Source of the DNA: Rhodobacter capsulatus
GTDB taxonomy: Bacteria; Pseudomonadota; Alphaproteobacteria; Rhodobacterales; Rhodobacteraceae
Direction of reading: 5' to 3'
Assembly: GCF_003254295.1 (NCBI RefSeq)
Contig: NZ_QKZO01000003.1
Location: 321,037-385,036 of the forward strand
DNA: 64,000 nucleotides
The notes below the pieces were generated by a model. It was not told the DNA's origin. It was given only the letters and a program-made list of their open reading frames with translations, and ran no database searches. Of the stretch, positions 23,745 to 56,602 are shown in pieces. Within the stretch, counting starts at the first letter, position 1, and every line of letters starts with the position of its first letter. A program made the position numbers and the translations under genes.

Positions 23745-24046
23745 CTGGCTGTCTCCCTGTCGTCTGCGGGGCTTTGCCCTCTTGCGACTCGTTTTCTGAC
23801 CGATTGGTCAGAGGAAAGAGGCCACGCTTCCCCGCCCCGGTCAATGGGGAATGGGGGGCTTGCGGGGCGCTTGGCGCGGGGGACACAGGCGATTGCCCGA
23901 ATTTTGGGCGGGACCAAGCGGCGGCTTGATCGGCGGGCCCGATGCGGCTAGCCTTTGCTCACCCAAGAAGGCGCCAAAGGCCCCGGGGTGCGGCTGACAG
24001 GGGAAATCCCGCGGCGGCAACGAGAGCAGTCAAGGACGAGGCAGGC
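23745..24046. other. Divergent control region of the pyrimidine hydrolase operon
   Basis: The 302-base gap between the leftward amidohydrolase and the rightward XRE gene. It holds the palindrome at 23796-23811 and otherwise unremarkable GC-rich sequence; no further ORF or RNA gene is evident. Confidence 0.5.
23796..23811. promoter_or_regulatory. RutR-like operator
   Basis: CTGACCGATTGGTCAG is a dyad (CTGACC, 4 bases, GGTCAG). It closely matches the RutR box I recall, TTGACCA NN TGGTCAA. RutR is the TetR-family, uracil/thymine-sensing repressor of pyrimidine use. It lies 52 bases before the amidohydrolase start, where a repressor would block the operon promoter. The rutR gene is not in the window. 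Confidence 0.65.
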
Positions 24047-24331
24047 ATGGAAGAGATGGAGAGCGGCCTTTGGCAGGCGCTTGAACGCAGCGCGGCCTTT
24101 TACGAGGGCGACGCGGCTTTCGAACCGATCCCGCAGGAACGCATCAACCCGGTCGACTTGCGGCGCAAGATGGGGCTGACCCAGGCGCAGATGGCGCCGA
24201 TGATGGGCATGAGCCTGTCGGGCTATCGCAAATGGGAACAGGGCCAGCGCGCGATCAGCGGCCCGGCCGCGGTGCTCTTGCGGGTGATCGAAACCGCCCC
24301 CGAAGCGGTGAAACAGGCGCTGGCGTCGTAA
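24047..24331 (+). CDS. XRE-family helix-turn-helix protein (antitoxin-like)
   Basis: The 94-residue protein has an acidic N-terminal half and a Cro/CI-type helix-turn-helix in the C-terminal half (LRRKMGLTQAQMAPMMGMSL, then YRKWEQGQRAIS, residues 43-75). The size and the conserved WEQGQR resemble HigA/NadS-type antitoxins and small transcription factors. No toxin gene is adjacent on either side. It sits between the two leftward pyrimidine-degradation operons and reads the opposite way, so it could regulate them, but it has no visible ligand domain. Start at ATG 24047; a second ATG three codons on is possible. Confidence 0.75.
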   Translation: MEEMESGLWQALERSAAFYEGDAAFEPIPQERINPVDLRRKMGLTQAQMAPMMGMSLSGYRKWEQGQRAISGPAAVLLRVIETAPEAVKQALAS

Positions 24332-24349
24332 GAAAATTCCCCGCAAGGG

Positions 24350-24564
24350 TCGGGCGGAACAGGAAAAGCACCGCTTTTCCCCGCCCGCTGGTGCACGCGC
24401 GGTCACACGACCGTTTCCCCAAGCGAGACAGAGGGCAGCGCCCGGCCCGGCGGGCGAGAAGCGCCCGCCTGTGGCGCGGGGCGGGCGCTGCCCGAGGGCC
24501 TTTGGGCCCTCGGCGGTCACGGGGCCGATCTGTCGCCAGACCTCGGCGATGGCCTCGGTCAATC
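24350..24564 (-). repeat. Structured interspersed repeat, copy A
   Basis: First of three copies (others 30796-31003 and 55476-55684). The nearly identical core is 24428-24513, with nested stems GGGCAGCGCCCG/CGGGCGCTGCCC and GGCGGGCG/CGCCCGCC, then CCGAGGGCC/GGGCCCTCGG. A hairpin built on GGAAAAGC/GCTTTTCC forms the left end. Relative to the leftward preA gene it lies about 40 bases downstream of the stop, after a further hairpin. Minus strand is given because all copies follow leftward genes. Confidence 0.85.
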
Positions 24565-24566
24565 TG

Positions 24567-24601
24567 GATGGGCTTCCCGGGCTTCGACCGGAAAGCCCAT
24601 C
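24567..24601 (-). terminator. Hairpin after preA
   Basis: GATGGGCTTCCCGG and CCGGAAAGCCCATC pair with one mismatch around a 7-base loop, three bases after the preA stop. Stem strength suggests a transcript end; no T-run is present. Confidence 0.5.
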
Positions 24602-24604
24602 ACC

Positions 24605-25906
24605 TCACTTCCCGCTGGTCGTCGCCATCGGGTTGTTCGGATGCCCGGTCCAGTTCAGATAGTCGCCGACCGGCTTGGCCGTGCGCAGGTCCAGCTCGCC
24701 CTCGGACAGCTCGCGCATGGTGATGCAGTTCGTCGGGCAGACCTCGACGCAGAGGTTGCAGGCGACACATTCCTCTTCCTTCACCGTCACCGTGCGATCC
24801 GCCGCCATCGTGATCGCCTGATGCGAGGTGTCCTCGCAGACGATGTGGCAGCGGCCGCATTTGATGCAATCCTCCTGCGCGATGCTGGCCTTGGTGGTGT
24901 AGTTCAGGTTCAGATACTGCCAATCCGTCACCTTCGGCACGGCGCGGCCGACGATTTCGCGCGTCTCGGTCAGGCCCTTGCGGTCCATGTAGTCCGACAG
25001 GCCCGAGATCATCTCCTCGACGATCTTGAAGCCATAGGTCATCACCGCGGTGCAGACCTGCACGTTATGCGCGCCCGGGGCCATGAACTCGGCCGCATCG
25101 CGCCAGGTGGTGACGCCGCCGATGCCCGAAATCGGCAAACCGCGCGTGGCCGGGTTGCGGGCGATCTCGGCCACCATGTTCAGCGCGATCGGTTTCACCG
25201 CCGGGCCGCAATAGCCGCCATGGGTGCCGAACCCGTCAATCGTCGGCTGCGGCGCAAACAGATCCAGATCGACCGAGGTGATCGAATTGATCGTGTTGAT
25301 CAGGCTCACCGCATCGGCGCCGCCGCGTTTCGCCGCTTCGGCCGGTATGCGGATGTCCGAGATGTTGGGCGTCAGCTTGACGATGCAGGGCATACGCGAA
25401 TGTTGCTTCACCCAGCGCGTCACCATCTCCACATAGTCCGGCACCTGCCCCACCGCCGCGCCCATGCCGCGTTCGGCCATGCCATGCGGACAGCCGAAGT
25501 TCAGCTCGACCCCGTCGGCCTCGGTTTCCTCGACCCGGGCCAGGATCGCTTTCCAGCTGTCCTCGTCGCAGGGCACCATCAGCGACACGACCAAGGCCCG
25601 GTCCGGGTAATCGCGCTTGACCGATTTGATCTCGCGCAGGTTCACCTCGAGCGGCCGGTCGGTGATCAACTCGATGTTGTTCAGGCCGAGAAGCGTGCCA
25701 TCGGGCCCGTGGATCGCGCCATAGCGCGGGCCGGAGACGTTCACCACCGGCGGGCCATCAAGCCCGAGCGTCTTCCAGACGACGCCGCCCCAACCGGCCT
25801 CAAAGGCGCGGCGGACGTTCACTTCCTTGTCGGTCGGCGGCGCCGAGGCGAGCCAGAACGGGTTCGGGGATTTGATGCCAAGGAATGTCGAAGTCAGGTT
25901 CGCCAT
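24605..25906 (-). CDS. preA: NAD-dependent dihydropyrimidine dehydrogenase, PreA subunit
   Basis: The 433-residue subunit reduces uracil and thymine, the first step of reductive pyrimidine breakdown. It has the FMN-binding TIM-barrel start (LTSTFLGIKSPNPFWLASAP), the substrate motif NFGCPHGM with the catalytic-loop Cys (residues 136-143) and two 4Fe-4S ferredoxin sites at the C-terminus (CIKCGRCHIVC and CVACNLCVEVC). The gene begins two bases after the preT stop, so PreT and PreA are made together and form the PreTA complex. Repeat copy A follows downstream. Confidence 0.94.
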   Translation of the reverse strand: MANLTSTFLGIKSPNPFWLASAPPTDKEVNVRRAFEAGWGGVVWKTLGLDGPPVVNVSGPRYGAIHGPDGTLLGLNNIELITDRPLEVNLREIKSVKRDYPDRALVVSLMVPCDEDSWKAILARVEETEADGVELNFGCPHGMAERGMGAAVGQVPDYVEMVTRWVKQHSRMPCIVKLTPNISDIRIPAEAAKRGGADAVSLINTINSITSVDLDLFAPQPTIDGFGTHGGYCGPAVKPIALNMVAEIARNPATRGLPISGIGGVTTWRDAAEFMAPGAHNVQVCTAVMTYGFKIVEEMISGLSDYMDRKGLTETREIVGRAVPKVTDWQYLNLNYTTKASIAQEDCIKCGRCHIVCEDTSHQAITMAADRTVTVKEEECVACNLCVEVCPTNCITMRELSEGELDLRTAKPVGDYLNWTGHPNNPMATTSGK

Positions 25907-28429: not shown

Positions 28430-28457
28430 GGGCCCACCGGCACCCGTCGGTGGGCCC
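28430..28457 (+). terminator. Hairpin between pucA and pucC
   Basis: GGGCCCACCG and CGGTGGGCCC pair perfectly around an 8-base loop, 13 bases after pucA. It probably acts as partial terminator and RNA stabiliser for the pucBA message. Confidence 0.75.
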
Positions 28458-28512
28458 ATTCCCTCCGGGGCTGAGCCCCTCGCACTTTCTCTCTCCGACG
28501 GGCGGCTGGACT

Positions 28513-29901
28513 ATGGGCTACCGTGCTTTTGCTCTGAAGAACCTGGCGCGGCACGCTCCGAAGTACCTGCCATTCGCCGACGTGGCCAGTGAAGAGGTTC
28601 CGCTCTCGCGGTTGCTGCGACTGTCGCTCTTTCAGATCACCGTCGGGATGACCTTGACCCTGCTCGCGGGCACCCTGAACCGGGTGATGATCGTCGAGCT
28701 GGCGGTTCCGGCCTCGCTCGTCTCGGTGATGCTGGCGATGCCGATGCTGTTTGCGCCCTTCCGCACGCTGATCGGCTTCAAGTCCGACACGCACAAGTCG
28801 GCTCTCGGGCTGCGTCGCGCGCCCTGGATCTGGAAGGGAACGATTTATCAATTCGGCGGCTTCGCCATCATGCCCTTCGCGCTTCTGGTGCTGTCGGGGT
28901 TCGGTGAATCCGTGGATGCGCCGCGCTGGATCGGAATGAGCGCGGCCGCTCTTGCCTTCCTCCTCGTGGGGGCCGGGGTGCATATCGTCCAGACCGCGGG
29001 TCTGGCGCTGGCAACCGACCTCGTCGCGGAAGAAGACCAGCCGAAGGTCGTCGGCCTCATGTATGTGATGCTGCTCTTCGGCATGGTGATCAGCGCGCTC
29101 GTCTACGGGGCGTTGCTGGCGGACTACACGCCCGGGCGCCTGATCCAGGTGATCCAGGGGACTGCATTGGCGAGTGTCGTGTTGAACATGGCCGCGATGT
29201 GGAAGCAGGAAGCCGTCAGCCGGGACCGTGCCCGGCAGATGGAAACCGCGGTGCACCCGACCTTCAAGGAGGCCTTCGGCCTGCTGATGGGCCGTCCGGG
29301 GATGCTGGCGCTGCTGACCGTGATCGCGCTGGGGACTTTCGGCTTCGGTATGGCCGATGTGCTTTTGGAACCCTACGGGGGTCAGGCGCTGCACCTGACC
29401 GTCGGGGAGACGACGAAACTGACCGCGCTCTTTGCGCTGGGGACGCTTGCCGGTTTCGGCACTGCGTCCCGTGTGCTGGGGAACGGGGCAAGGCCGATGC
29501 CGCTGGCGGTGCTGGGTGCACTGATCGGGGTTCCCGGGTTTGTCGCCATCATCATGTCCTCGCTGATCAGCCAGGACGGTATCTGGCTGTTCCTTGCGGG
29601 CACCTTCGCTGTCGGGCTCGGCATCGGTCTTTTCGGCCATGCCACGCTGACGGCGACCATGCGGACCGCGCCCGCCGATCGGATCGGGCTGGCGCTGGGA
29701 GCCTGGGGGGCTGTGCAGGCGACGGCCGCCGGTCTGGGTGTCGCGCTTGCGGGGGTGGTTCGTGACGGTTTGGTTGCCCTGCCGGGGACTTTCGGGTCCG
29801 GTGTGGTGGGGCCTTATAATACGGTGTTCGCCATCGAGGCGTTGATTTTGATCGTGGCCATCGCCTTCGCTGTGCCGCTTCTCAAGCGGGGAGGTCGATG
29901 A
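28513..29901 (+). CDS. pucC: PucC, LH2 assembly protein (BCD/MFS family)
   Basis: A 462-residue inner-membrane protein with about twelve hydrophobic segments, of the PucC/LhaA/BchG-associated family within the major facilitator superfamily. It is required for LH2 assembly and is thought to shepherd pigments or complexes. I chose the ATG at 28513 (MGYRAFALKNLARHAPKYLP) since upstream in-frame sequence overlaps the pucA hairpin. The family-typical segment RRAPWIWKGTIYQFGGFAIM lies at residues 99-118. Fourth base-level unit of the puc operon after the hairpin; pucDE follows after 63 bases. Confidence 0.96.
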   Translation: MGYRAFALKNLARHAPKYLPFADVASEEVPLSRLLRLSLFQITVGMTLTLLAGTLNRVMIVELAVPASLVSVMLAMPMLFAPFRTLIGFKSDTHKSALGLRRAPWIWKGTIYQFGGFAIMPFALLVLSGFGESVDAPRWIGMSAAALAFLLVGAGVHIVQTAGLALATDLVAEEDQPKVVGLMYVMLLFGMVISALVYGALLADYTPGRLIQVIQGTALASVVLNMAAMWKQEAVSRDRARQMETAVHPTFKEAFGLLMGRPGMLALLTVIALGTFGFGMADVLLEPYGGQALHLTVGETTKLTALFALGTLAGFGTASRVLGNGARPMPLAVLGALIGVPGFVAIIMSSLISQDGIWLFLAGTFAVGLGIGLFGHATLTATMRTAPADRIGLALGAWGAVQATAAGLGVALAGVVRDGLVALPGTFGSGVVGPYNTVFAIEALILIVAIAFAVPLLKRGGR

Positions 29902-29964
29902 CCCGAGGCCCGTGCGGGACACCTGGACGTGACTGAAGAATGCCCTTGAACCCGAGGAGGACGC

Positions 29965-30663
29965 ATGACGACGGTGATCACACGGCTTTATGCCGATGAA
30001 AAAACGGCTTGCGACATCGCAAGACAACTGAAAAGCGAAGGTATTCCGAAACGCGCTCTGAAGGTCGTCGTCGCCGACGGCAAGAAGGGCGCTGCCTTGG
30101 CCGAAGCCCTCAAGTCCGCCGGCGTGCATCCCAGCGCGGCTGCGGGCTATGCCGAACGTGTCGCCGGCGGCGCTGCCGCGCTCGTGGCGAAAGTCAACTA
30201 CAAGCCGCTCGGCGCGGCGAAACTCGTGCGCGCCATCACTGCTCGCGCAGCGGTGGTCGCGGTCGAGAACGCAACCGAAGAGTTCACCTGTGAGGACGCA
30301 TCTGAAATGACTGACAACATCATGAAAGACCACCGGCACATCTTCCTGCCGCAACCCGTCAAGGCCGACGAAAAGCCCGGCGCCTTCTCGGAGCGCTTTG
30401 GCTGGAAACTTCTGCTCGACACCCCGCGCAAGAAGAACGTCTACGAAGGCACCAAGTTCATGTCGCAAGACTTCTGGCCGACGCCCTTGGTGAAAACCAC
30501 CGCGCCGAAGGTCAAGCTGATCCCGGCTGACGCTCCGCCGCAATCGGCGAAGTTCTGGAAAGCCCCGCTGCTGAAAGACACGCCGCGTCAATCGAACGTG
30601 ATCCCGGGCGACTTCCTGCCCTTCTCGAACACCTTCGGCCTGGCGACCATTCAGCGTCGCTGA
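29965..30663 (+). CDS. pucDE: PucDE, LH2 accessory protein (pucD and pucE in one frame)
   Basis: One open frame of 232 residues with GAGGAGG before its ATG. The first 114 residues are Ala/Lys-rich with regular helices and Val-rich strands and match what is called pucD. From the internal ATG at 30307 onward the sequence is the 14-kDa LH2 gamma protein PucE. No stop or frameshift separates the two, so a full-length PucDE fusion and a shorter PucE from the internal start are both possible. In R. capsulatus these proteins stabilise LH2 rather than bind pigment. It ends the operon at the terminator at 30710. Confidence 0.85.
   Translation: MTTVITRLYADEKTACDIARQLKSEGIPKRALKVVVADGKKGAALAEALKSAGVHPSAAAGYAERVAGGAAALVAKVNYKPLGAAKLVRAITARAAVVAVENATEEFTCEDASEMTDNIMKDHRHIFLPQPVKADEKPGAFSERFGWKLLLDTPRKKNVYEGTKFMSQDFWPTPLVKTTAPKVKLIPADAPPQSAKFWKAPLLKDTPRQSNVIPGDFLPFSNTFGLATIQRR
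30307..30663 (+). CDS. pucE: PucE, 14-kDa gamma protein of LH2 (internal start)
   Basis: An internal in-frame ATG at 30307 lies behind GAGGACGC with 7-9-base spacing and gives 118 residues beginning MTDNIMKDHRHIFLPQPVKA, the size of the 14-kDa protein that copurifies with the R. capsulatus B800-850 complex. The product is hydrophilic and Pro/Lys-rich, without a membrane helix, as known for PucE. It is nested in the longer frame above; protein-level evidence from earlier work on LH2 supports the short form. Confidence 0.75.
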   Translation: MTDNIMKDHRHIFLPQPVKADEKPGAFSERFGWKLLLDTPRKKNVYEGTKFMSQDFWPTPLVKTTAPKVKLIPADAPPQSAKFWKAPLLKDTPRQSNVIPGDFLPFSNTFGLATIQRR

Positions 30664-30795: not shown

Positions 30796-31003
30796 TCGGG
30801 CGAAACGGAAAACGCATCGCGTTTTCCCGCCCGTTGCGAGCCGGTCGGCACAGGACCGCAGTCCCAGGCGTGACAGAGGGCGGCGCCCGTCCCGGCGGGC
30901 GAGAAGCGCCCGCCGGGACGGGGCGGGCGCTGCCCGAGTGCCTTTGGGCCCTCGGGGGGCATCGGACCAATGATCCGCGAGGCCAAGGCGATGGCCTTGG
31001 CCA
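30796..31003 (-). repeat. Structured interspersed repeat, copy B
   Basis: Second copy of the family (core 30873-30955). The left hairpin uses GGAAAACGC/GCGTTTTCC, differing from copy A with matching changes on both arms. The right end is GGCCAAGG/CCTTGGCC at 30981-31002, only 8 bases from the stop codon of the leftward cysA gene. Confidence 0.88.
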
Positions 31004-54396: not shown

Positions 54397-54974
54397 AGCG
54401 GCCTCCCCCAGAATTGCAACGGTTTCGCAGTCTCGCCCGCGGCGCCGATATCCGTCCAGCGGAAATGCGCGATCACGCCGGGCAGGGGCACATAGCCGCG
54501 CTTTTGCCAGAACCCGTCAAGCGGGCGGTAAGTGTCTGGTTTCAGTGGATGATCCTTGGGGCGGATCACCGCGCAAAAGGCGCTGAAGCGGCGGCCGAGC
54601 GCCCTTGCATGGGCCTCGCGCGCGTCGAAGAAGGCGTGGCCAAGGCCCTGGCCGCGATAATCGGGCAACAGCACCGACTCGGCGCAGTAAAAGACCGTCT
54701 CGAGCGGCAGGCCGGTCGGGGCGAAGGAGGCGGCGAAATCCTCCGCATGATCTTCCAGCGGCGTGCCGGTGGCGGCGCCCACCAGCCGCGGCCCGTCAAA
54801 GGCGCCGACGACGACGGCGCCGGGCGAGGTCCGGTAGCTTTCCAGATAGCGGCGTTCATAGTCCAGCGAGCCCTCGTAAAGATAGGGCCAGTCGCGAAAG
54901 ACCGCGATGCGCAGCGCCGCCACATCGTCCAGCGCGGCATCAAGCGCCGGGCCGGTCAGAACCCGCGTTTCCAT
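54393..54974 (-). CDS. GNAT-family N-acetyltransferase
   Basis: The 193-residue protein has the acetyl-CoA-binding motif A in VLLPDYRGQGLGHAFFDARE (residues 108-127; Q/RxxGxG/A core is YRGQGLG), the GNAT hallmark. N-terminal part METRVLTGPALDAALDDVAA. Substrate not known; being translationally coupled to an amidase-type hydrolase and a SnoaL-like protein suggests a small-molecule pathway. ATG at 54974 overlaps the stop of the upstream gene in a TGATG junction. Confidence 0.8.
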   Translation of the reverse strand: METRVLTGPALDAALDDVAALRIAVFRDWPYLYEGSLDYERRYLESYRTSPGAVVVGAFDGPRLVGAATGTPLEDHAEDFAASFAPTGLPLETVFYCAESVLLPDYRGQGLGHAFFDAREAHARALGRRFSAFCAVIRPKDHPLKPDTYRPLDGFWQKRGYVPLPGVIAHFRWTDIGAAGETAKPLQFWGRPL

Positions 54975-55381
54975 CAGCGGACCTGACGGATCCAGTCGGC
55001 CAGGTTGTAATAGGTGGTGACGCGCTGGATGCGGTTGCCGCGCAGGGTGAAGAAGCTGCCCGCGGGCAGGATGTAGCTTTGGCCGCGCGCCTCGGGCAGG
55101 CCGTCGTCGGTGGCGATGTAGCGGCCATGGACGGTAAATTCCGCCGCCGCGCGGCTGCCCGCATCATTCGCCATCACCACGATGTCGGCCAGCGTCTCGC
55201 GGTAGCAGCGGGACATGTGGGCGTTGAAGGCGCGGAAGGTTTCGACGCCGCGGCGGATTTCGCCCTCGTTGACGTGATGCTCGAAATCCTCGGTCAGAAG
55301 CGCCTCCATCGCCGAGGTGTCGCCCCGGTTGAAGGCGTCGTAATAGGCGGAAATCACGGCAAGGGCGGCGGCGCGGGGCAT
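54974..55381 (-). CDS. SnoaL/NTF2-like protein
   Basis: The 135-residue protein has the cone-shaped NTF2 fold pattern: an N-terminal helix (AVISAYYDAFNRGDTSAMEALLTEDFEHH, the YYDAFNxGD motif) followed by strands ending in YYNLADWIRQV. Members are ketosteroid-isomerase-like or carry unknown substrates. GGAGG lies 9 bases before the ATG at 55381, which I prefer to an earlier in-frame codon. First gene of the operon with the GNAT and nitrilase-type genes. Confidence 0.8.
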   Translation of the reverse strand: MPRAAALAVISAYYDAFNRGDTSAMEALLTEDFEHHVNEGEIRRGVETFRAFNAHMSRCYRETLADIVVMANDAGSRAAAEFTVHGRYIATDDGLPEARGQSYILPAGSFFTLRGNRIQRVTTYYNLADWIRQVR

Positions 55382-55475
55382 CGGATCCTCCATCTGGTGC
55401 CGCATCTGTGGCATGAGCGGCCGGTTTGGTCAAACCTTGGAACCGGCAGGGCATGGGGCAAAAGCGGCATGGGGT

Positions 55476-55684
55476 TCGGGCGGGGAAACGCGACCCGCGT
55501 TTCCCCGCCCGCGGCGCCCCGGTTGTGGCATGACCGTTTCAGCCCGCACAACAGAGGGCAGCGCCCGGCCCGGCGGGCGAGAAGCGCCCGCCATGGGCGG
55601 GGCGGGCGCTGCCCGAGGGCCTCTGGGCCCTCGGGGGTCGCGGGACTGCTGTGAGGCATGGCCAAGGCGATGGCCTTGGCCAAG
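55476..55684 (-). repeat. Structured interspersed repeat, copy C
   Basis: Third copy (core 55551-55634). The left hairpin is perfect over 16 pairs, CGGGCGGGGAAACGCG with CGCGTTTCCCCGCCCG. The right end GGCCAAGG/CCTTGGCC lies 5 bases from the stop of the leftward reductase gene. This copy fills most of the 308-base gap between the reductase and the SnoaL-like gene. Confidence 0.88.
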
Positions 55685-55689
55685 GCAGC

Positions 55690-56523
55690 TCACGCCAGCG
55701 CCGCCCGCACGGTTTCCGCCATCGGCACCGTCGGCCGCCCGATCAGCCGCGAGAGCGTCTGGCTGTCGTCGTAAAGCGCCCCGGCCGTGCCCACCACCGC
55801 ATCGGATTGGGCCAGCGTCGCGGCAAAGGCGGCGGGCAGGCCGAAGCCTTCGAGCGCCTTGGCATAGTCCGCCTGCGTCATGTTCACATAGGCGACCGGC
55901 TTGCCCGATTGCGCCGCGACCTCGGCCGCAAGCTCGGCCATGGTGAAGGCGCTGTCCCCCGCAAGTTCATAGACCTGCCCCTCGTGGCCCGGCTCCAGCG
56001 CCACCACCGCCGCCGCTTCGGCATAATCGGCCCGCGGCGCGGCGGCATATTTCCCCTCGCCCGCCGCGCCGATCAGCGCCCCATGCGCCAGCGCCGCGCC
56101 AAGATTGCCGGTCAGGTTCTCGGTGTACCAGCCGTTGCGCAGGATCGTATAAGCGACGCCCGAGGCCTTCAGCGCGGCCTCGGTCGCGATGTGATCGGCG
56201 GCCAGCAGCGTCATCGGCGAGGCATCGCCCTTGAGCACCGAGGTATAGACGATCCGCCCCACGCCCGCGGCCTTGGCCGCCGCGATCGCCCTGGCATGCT
56301 GCCCGGCGCGGTCGTTGAAATCATTGCTGGAAATCAGCACCAGCACCGAAACTCCGGCCAGCGCCGCCGCATCGGGGGCGGTGTAGTCGAAGGCGCGGGC
56401 CTCGTATCCCACGATGCGCGCGGGCGTGCGGGCAAGGGCGACGGGCGCGGCGCCGCGGGCTTTCAGCGCGGCAAGGACAAGCGTCCCCAGTTGTCCGGTG
56501 GCGGCAGAGACGGCGATGGTCAT
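55690..56523 (-). CDS. NAD(P)H-binding reductase, QorB/NmrA-like
   Basis: The 277-residue Rossmann-fold protein starts MTIAVSAATGQLGTLVLAAL (GxTGxxG-type motif as AATGQLG) and has the NmrA/QorB-type core (YTSVLKGDASPMTLLAADH, ILRNGWYTENL). Such proteins reduce quinones with NAD(P)H or sense redox. AAGGA lies 6 bases before the ATG at 56523. It diverges from an HxlR-family gene, the usual partner of qorB-type genes, pointing to control by electrophile or quinone stress. Repeat copy C begins 5 bases after its stop. Confidence 0.85.
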   Translation of the reverse strand: MTIAVSAATGQLGTLVLAALKARGAAPVALARTPARIVGYEARAFDYTAPDAAALAGVSVLVLISSNDFNDRAGQHARAIAAAKAAGVGRIVYTSVLKGDASPMTLLAADHIATEAALKASGVAYTILRNGWYTENLTGNLGAALAHGALIGAAGEGKYAAAPRADYAEAAAVVALEPGHEGQVYELAGDSAFTMAELAAEVAAQSGKPVAYVNMTQADYAKALEGFGLPAAFAATLAQSDAVVGTAGALYDDSQTLSRLIGRPTVPMAETVRAALA

Positions 56524-56574
56524 GGGCATTCCTTTCGTTGACTTGCCCGATCTCGCCACAGGTGCTATCAAAAC

Positions 56575-56602
56575 GTAAGTACCCACATGAATGTAAGTAT
56601 CC
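56575..56602. promoter_or_regulatory. Direct repeats, likely HxlR operator
   Basis: GTAAGTACCC (56575-56584) and GTAAGTATCC (56593-56602) repeat with an 18-base period between the divergent QorB-like and HxlR genes. A plausible site for the HxlR protein; not tested. Confidence 0.5.

Follow-up and report, generated by a model that had tools for sequence, protein, structure and literature searches.

Three copies of a repeat of about 210 bp lie in the window, by which we mean the whole stretch of 64,000 nucleotides of Rhodobacter capsulatus DNA that was analyzed, and the three are alignable with one another over that length (Table 1). Copy 1 is located between convergent genes, a plus-strand gene (ORF 23942-24331; stop 24329-24331) and a minus-strand gene (ORF 24605-25906; stop 24605), with gaps of 19 and 43 nt to the flanking stops. 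Copy 2 also sits between convergent genes (plus-strand stop 30663, minus-strand stop 31012), with gaps of 133 and 8 nt, and upstream of it, within 28450-30663, is gene 28450-29901, which we take to resemble the light-harvesting assembly protein PucC, a likeness that fits a photosynthetic Rhodobacter. Copy 3 has a tandem context with a single facing stop codon, that of the minus-strand gene 55690-56586 at a distance of 7 nt, and it lies upstream of the minus-strand gene 54974-55414; its covariance-model match is 55484-55682, because the match begins inside the element. The initial annotation had placed three copies at these positions, and our alignment refines their ends, confirms a core of about 85 bp that is near-identical among them, and bears out the pairing of the left arms, which read GGAAAAGC/GCTTTTCC, GGAAAACGC/GCGTTTTCC, and GGGAAACGCG/CGCGTTTCCC in the three copies.

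Table 1. Repeat copies in the window and their structural parts
Feature	Coordinates	Strand	Remark
Copy 1, whole element	24351..24561	+	~210-bp repeat, refined ends
Copy 1, left hairpin, 6 + 8 pairs	24351..24387	+	pairs checked in copy alignment
Copy 1, core, 15-pair stem around hairpin GGCGGGCG-AGAAG-CGCCCGCC	24433..24493	+	
Copy 1, tail hairpin GAGGGC-CTTTGG-GCCCTC	24494..24512	+	
Copy 1, right hairpin GACCTCGGC-GATG-GCCTCGGTC	24539..24561	+	inner TC/TC unpaired in copy 1
Copy 2, whole element	30797..31003	+	~210-bp repeat, refined ends
Copy 2, left hairpin	30797..30833	+	
Copy 2, core	30878..30935	+	
Copy 2, right hairpin	30981..31003	+	all pairs formed
Copy 3, whole element	55477..55682	+	~210-bp repeat, refined ends
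Copy 3, left hairpin	55477..55511	+	
Copy 3, core	55556..55614	+	
Copy 3, right hairpin	55660..55682	+	all pairs formed

The repeat forms a family of about 42 copies in its own genome, mostly of 205-212 bp, of which the window contains three. BLAST with copy 3 as the query gave at least 42 matches in that genome (best 40 of 176 candidates scored), two of which are partial and contain the palindromic left arm only, and a core covariance model, R1, built from 26 sequences of which 21 are from the same genome (G000), also found at least 42, so that the earlier expectation of many genome-wide copies holds. The 21-base pattern of the core, allowing as many as 3 mismatches, had 35 matches compared with 2 for the reversed control, and the fold of copy 3 has a z of -7.6, with 0 of 200 dinucleotide shuffles equally good. 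On the BLAST matches, the core model, the 21-base pattern, and the fold, the likeness of the copies is not due to chance. Protein coding was rejected on length: 137 of the 149 distinct copies compared are full length, and their lengths are spread evenly over the three phases (48/45/44).

The element opens with the left hairpin, of 6 + 8 pairs, which is followed by a variable stretch containing GACCGTTT; next come the core, the tail hairpin, a second variable stretch, and the right hairpin, which is built on GGC-GATG-GCC. The 15-pair stem of the core encloses the same GGCGGGCG-AGAAG-CGCCCGCC hairpin that is listed for copy 1. One copy of 196 bases (G000:C1:56214-56409; L033 1416-1611) is without the 5' strand of the core stem and retains the inner and outer hairpins. 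The stems are maintained by paired changes, as had been suggested from the left arms of the window copies. In 36 copies from within the genome, pairing is found in 94.6% of 1,857 cells, compared with 37.8-51.9% once the partners are displaced by 1-3 columns; both sides have changed in 71 cells, compared with a shuffled mean of 23.6 (reached by 0 of 500 shuffles) and with 2-9 under such displacement. A cross-genus set of 27 sequences, two window copies and 25 from other records of several genera, gives a comparable picture, with 97.0% of 1,107 cells paired and 64 double-changed cells, compared with 20.1 in shuffles and 1-11 in slides; this count omits the tail hairpin and the outer part of the left hairpin, whose columns did not align. 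Two of the five paired-change measures are weaker in the cross-genus set, namely the number of pairs with a double change (9 versus 6.4, reached by 6 of 500 shuffles) and the number of further pair types (17 versus 18.8 shuffled, reached by 486 of 500). Across records the right hairpin varies as a unit, for example TGGCGAAGGC/GCCTTCGCCA, TGGCAGGGGC/GCCCCTGCCA, and TGGCAAAGGC/GCCTTTGCCA, and in most copies of the R. capsulatus group two of its inner pairs fail to form.

The covariance-model search of the own and related genomes that was proposed with the initial annotation returned further copies in both. In addition to the own genome, R1 detected at least 51 copies in G010, at least 44 in G014, at least 29 in G009, and a single one in G005; the remaining 13 of 18 Rhodobacter congeners gave no copy with up to 150 candidates scored per genome. 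These counts are lower bounds, since at most 150 candidates were scored per congener and at most 38 per other genome of the family. Under strict filters, 30 of 119 other sampled Rhodobacteraceae genomes were positive, with at least 1-9 copies each, and relatives that have the core alone were found in other genera of the family. R1 copies number at least 150 in Rhodobacter sp. SGA-6-6, 53 in Pseudorhodobacter sp. PARRP1, and 26 in F. albus. The exact 21-base core occurs in at least 115 stretches of GTDB contigs, and the 80 listed pointed to full-length copies in SGA-6-6, PARRP1, Frigidibacter, and several MAGs. Direct tandem arrays are present in Rhodobacter MAGs (L292 132-794, L343 460-1114, L329 2796-3383, L332 3200-3858), often with about 35 bases separating the units, and in the Frigidibacter records L293, L341, and L356 an additional stretch inside the core splits the model match in two. 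Core relatives were found in 54 of 72,556 plasmid records, all of Phaeobacter or Leisingera; such cores start 30 nt behind an annotated gene end in Leisingera aquaemixtae (L258) and 13 nt behind one in Phaeobacter inhibens (L259). There were no matches in 50,697 records of a phage collection. The absence of a matching named element noted earlier persists: at the gathering score, Rfam reports two tRNAs in the window and nothing on the repeats; a lax Rfam search with copy 1 gave seven matches that are all far below the gathering score of their own family; and the repeat is undescribed in the open literature searched, as judged by its listings.

The view from one window did not extend to the placement of the copies relative to stop codons, to their spread in the family, or to an exchange of orientation between species. 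From 167 R1 matches in five genomes, 149 copies were taken with their flanks, and flanking genes were assigned by codon-usage calls trained on 11 ORFs of the window, all 11 stops of which were recovered. Both neighbors were called for 148 copies, of which 102 are convergent, 42 co-directional (26 + 16), and 4 divergent. A facing stop codon is present at 144 of the 148, within 30 nt in 136 (median 10.5 nt), and in 80 of the 102 convergent copies both gaps are 30 nt or less. Counted as distinct sites, 35 of 54 are convergent, 18 tandem, and 1 divergent, compared with 4 convergent among 50 element-free junctions in the window, which serve as the control. In the case of SGA-6-6, 25 copies (7 convergent, 15 tandem, 3 divergent) are near background, with most facing stops within about 65 nt of the copy. 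Eight apparently unshared G000 sites were followed in five genomes, and 14 site-locus alignments were judged by eye, several distant ones (G013, G005) being too diverged for judging occupancy. By these alignments, three convergent sites of G009 are empty, with some 0-30 nt between the genes, and at the G009 site orthologous to G000:C6:203996 (L233) a different, simple hairpin between convergent genes replaces the repeat.

Sites were then compared among four Rhodobacter species by a grouping of flanks that allows inversion; same-way flank matches alone give 87 sites, many of them single, and the singles were inverted occupants. The grouping yields the 54 sites, 44 of which are common to at least two species, and 33 of these 44 are mixed in orientation. 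The 160 orthologous pairs, which are not independent events, comprise 83 same-way and 77 inverted pairs. Among full-length copies (12 incomplete of 149 omitted), mean element identity is 0.878 for same-way orthologs (73 pairs), 0.784 for inverted orthologs (69), and 0.774 for non-orthologous copies (6,823). Of the 40 same-way pairs in the three closest species, 5 are no more alike than unrelated copies, and none of the 44 inverted pairs exceeds 0.839. Counted by site, orientation is mixed at 26 of 38, inverted pairs all stay below 0.85, and an unrelated same-way pair occurs at 5 of 38 sites, 4 of them mixed, as expected from a double flip. Beyond 30 nt, flank identity in these species is 0.938-0.952 for inverted and 0.932-0.953 for same-way pairs, and in the first 30 nt, including the gap, it is 0.855 and 0.914, respectively. 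The stretches between stop and element resemble each other in same-way pairs (mean scores 5.1 and 4.1); for inverted pairs, set side by side in the element frame, the scores are what chance gives (-1.0 and -1.6 versus -1.2 and -2.1). One inverted pair is that of R. viridis NZ_QJTK01000001.1 (L324) and R. capsulatus SP108 NZ_SWJZ01000017.1 (L311). Since inverted pairs are close to the non-orthologous level and their flanks are equally kept, the occupants of these sites have been exchanged, nearly always with a flip. The exchange is bounded by the stop codons, sequence and direction change together, and the donor is not visible in the aligned copies.

Three ordinary routes to such a pattern fail, because they predict kept sequence, a near-identical donor, or differing flanks. 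In-place inversion as the sole process is contradicted by the divergence of inverted orthologs, whose identity exceeds that of non-orthologous copies by no more than about 0.01; at 50 variable columns the values are 0.451 for inverted and 0.442 for non-orthologous pairs, and alignment in the flank frame is random (0.584 and 0.584). Recent transposition from a resident copy is contradicted by the finding that 0 of 28 minority-orientation alleles have a non-orthologous match above 0.90 among 137 aligned copies, and the closest same-genome relative of these alleles is no nearer than that of the others (0.846 versus 0.853). Within one genome, the closest match between copies is 0.875 or less in G000, 0.89 in G009, 0.928 in G010, and 0.904 in G014, the last two values coming from one exceptional pair each. 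Import by recombination together with the flanking genes conflicts with flanks beyond 30 nt that are alike in inverted and same-way pairs. We put forward, tentatively, a slot-faithful and orientation-reversing exchange, in which about 50 gene-end slots stay fixed and, from one sister species to another, their occupants give way to others, nearly always flipped; if true, repeats would here turn over in a way that is new. A new copy may insert in the opposite direction beside the old one, which is then lost because the pair forms a long palindrome, though this route leaves the missing donors unexplained; among the 149 copies there is no site with two adjacent copies, and the nearest pair is 1.5 kb apart. 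The occupants may instead be old alternative alleles that do not recombine because they are inverted, with same-way alleles being homogenized, though very long-lived alleles would be required. A third possible route would be an error-prone copying step.

The best reading of the repeat is that it is a REP/ERIC-like structured 3' end for abutting genes, in either orientation, and we give about an even chance to its being a non-coding, interspersed multi-hairpin repeat of Rhodobacteraceae that acts as a structured gene end. A structured 3' end on both mRNAs is favored because of the stop spacing, the convergent bias, and the kept stems. Transcription into the gap would produce an RNA that folds into strong hairpins just past the stop codon, and these might shield the mRNA 3' end from exonucleases and help to stop or pause polymerase ahead of the opposite gene. 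This effect would be roughly symmetric, while the sequence is not, and therefore an occupant in either orientation would serve. Consistent with such a role are the paired changes, which exceed the controls both in this genome and across genera, the proximity of most copies to a facing stop, the excess of convergent sites over the window control, the rarity of divergent copies, the presence of either orientation at shared sites, the different hairpin at the G009 site, and the plasmid cores close behind genes. Against it are the lack of a U-run past either outer stem, the lack of a terminator-like site at copy 1, the near-background context in SGA-6-6, the 13 of 18 congeners without the repeat, and the fact that one stop can be distant, as at window copy 2.

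The same placement past convergent stop codons, with strong hairpins directly behind them, would also be expected of a conventional bidirectional intrinsic terminator, but the end profile of 130 copies (12 incomplete and 7 more omitted of 149) has no U-run beyond either outer stem, the outside consensus being AAMC and RRNC, and no terminator-like site was found at 24200-24700 around copy 1, which makes this reading very improbable. A device acting at the DNA level, for which a supercoil-absorbing role proposed for some E. coli BIMEs is the analogy, might be a cruciform or a gyrase or nucleoid-protein site that takes up positive supercoils between converging polymerases. It would account for the convergent bias, the indifference to orientation, and the palindromic stems, and it is in keeping with a strand test of G.U versus A.C departures that favors neither RNA strand: G.U cells outnumber A.C cells (133 versus 72), yet per pair the split is 14 versus 10 (p = 0.54), and the test thus does not decide between the RNA and the cruciform DNA named in the initial annotation. 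With 18 of 54 sites being tandem, and the tight spacing to stop codons being better explained through RNA or translation, we regard it as unlikely.

A further possibility, which we hold to be a real one if rather improbable, is that the repeat is a mobile element, selfish and non-autonomous, that uses its hairpins to transpose, perhaps in the form of folded single-stranded DNA, and that persists only where it does least harm, past stop codons, so that its placement would be no sign of a host function. Its concentration in few lineages (many copies in four genomes versus none in 13 congeners), the empty orthologous sites, and the direct tandem arrays in some MAGs are all in line with mobility. 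So is SGA-6-6 (G152), in which coherent orientation and GC skew go in step, as lagging-strand insertion would give: 130 of 150 listed copies have the majority direction along their contigs, compared with a shuffled mean of 94.7 (0 of 20,000 shuffles), and at 16 of 20 loci the skew, taken in the element frame, has a negative sign. On one contig 23 of 23 copies point one way, and on another 19 of 21 point the opposite way. It looks as though copy orientation in SGA-6-6 is set by replication. Orientation along contigs is not coherent in G010 (runs test z -1.5) and is mixed on the three copy-richest contigs of PARRP1 (9:6, 7:5, and 4:6, counted by eye), and a GC-skew bias is absent in G000, G009, G010, and G014; therefore, coherence is not treated as a general property. 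Mobility is opposed by a search for the Y1 (IS200/IS605-like) transposase PF01797, the one type sought, which found none in 18 congeners or in SGA-6-6 with a control that rang in 5 of 14 genomes. In the 130 copies of the end profile, direct repeats of 3-8 nt around the element are no commoner than with re-paired flanks, so that there is no target-site duplication, which also speaks against a MITE, and stems are retained in old copies, newly made copies are absent from G000, and, as noted above, nearly all copies are full length.

The usual view of interspersed palindromic repeats is that they transpose and then decay; here sites and stems persist, and the occupant changes and flips. We class the repeat as a new family within a known kind, that of palindromic repeats between genes, and its turnover is unusual; its occurrence in a tractable photosynthetic model genus makes both the role of hairpin repeats at gene ends and turnover without a visible transposase testable.

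Among known systems, REPs are described, in the part of the account available, as palindromes of 20-40 bp with a GTAG/CGTC tag and many intergenic copies, mostly convergent or co-directional (PMC3733652). The repeat resembles REP/BIME systems with RAYT in being palindromic, intergenic, and present in many copies with a convergent and co-directional bias (144 of 148 copies), but it is a multi-stem unit of about 210 bp that is accompanied by no Y1/RAYT gene in the 18 congeners or SGA-6-6 and has, by eye, no GTAG or CGTC tag at its ends, which read GKTTCGGGCG and GGYCARRNC; terminal inverted repeats are also absent by eye, since the ends differ (CGGGCGG... versus ...GGYCA). With the ERIC (IRU) of enterobacteria it shares the form of a single long, structured intergenic unit; as far as the excerpted source goes, ERIC is 127 bp long, has a terminal repeat of 7 bp, and ends in TA on either side, and its orientation is said to affect mRNA stability (PMC2229807), whereas our repeat is without target duplication or TA termini, a distinction drawn by description rather than by sequence. 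The CIR of Caulobacter and Brucella, likewise an alphaproteobacterial intergenic stem-loop repeat with a partial resemblance to MITEs, is described in the same excerpt around a GANTC motif (PMC2229807), which is absent by eye from our consensus, and CIR too is set apart by description and not by sequence. Finally, in the available portion of a survey, stem-loops in many bacteria are found preferentially in intergenic regions of convergent genes and in the 50 bp directly past stop codons, where bidirectional use is possible (PMC1590033); our repeat shares this convergent, post-stop placement, but theirs are single hairpins, partly with A/T runs, and here it is a repeated multi-stem unit without runs that stands at the gene end.
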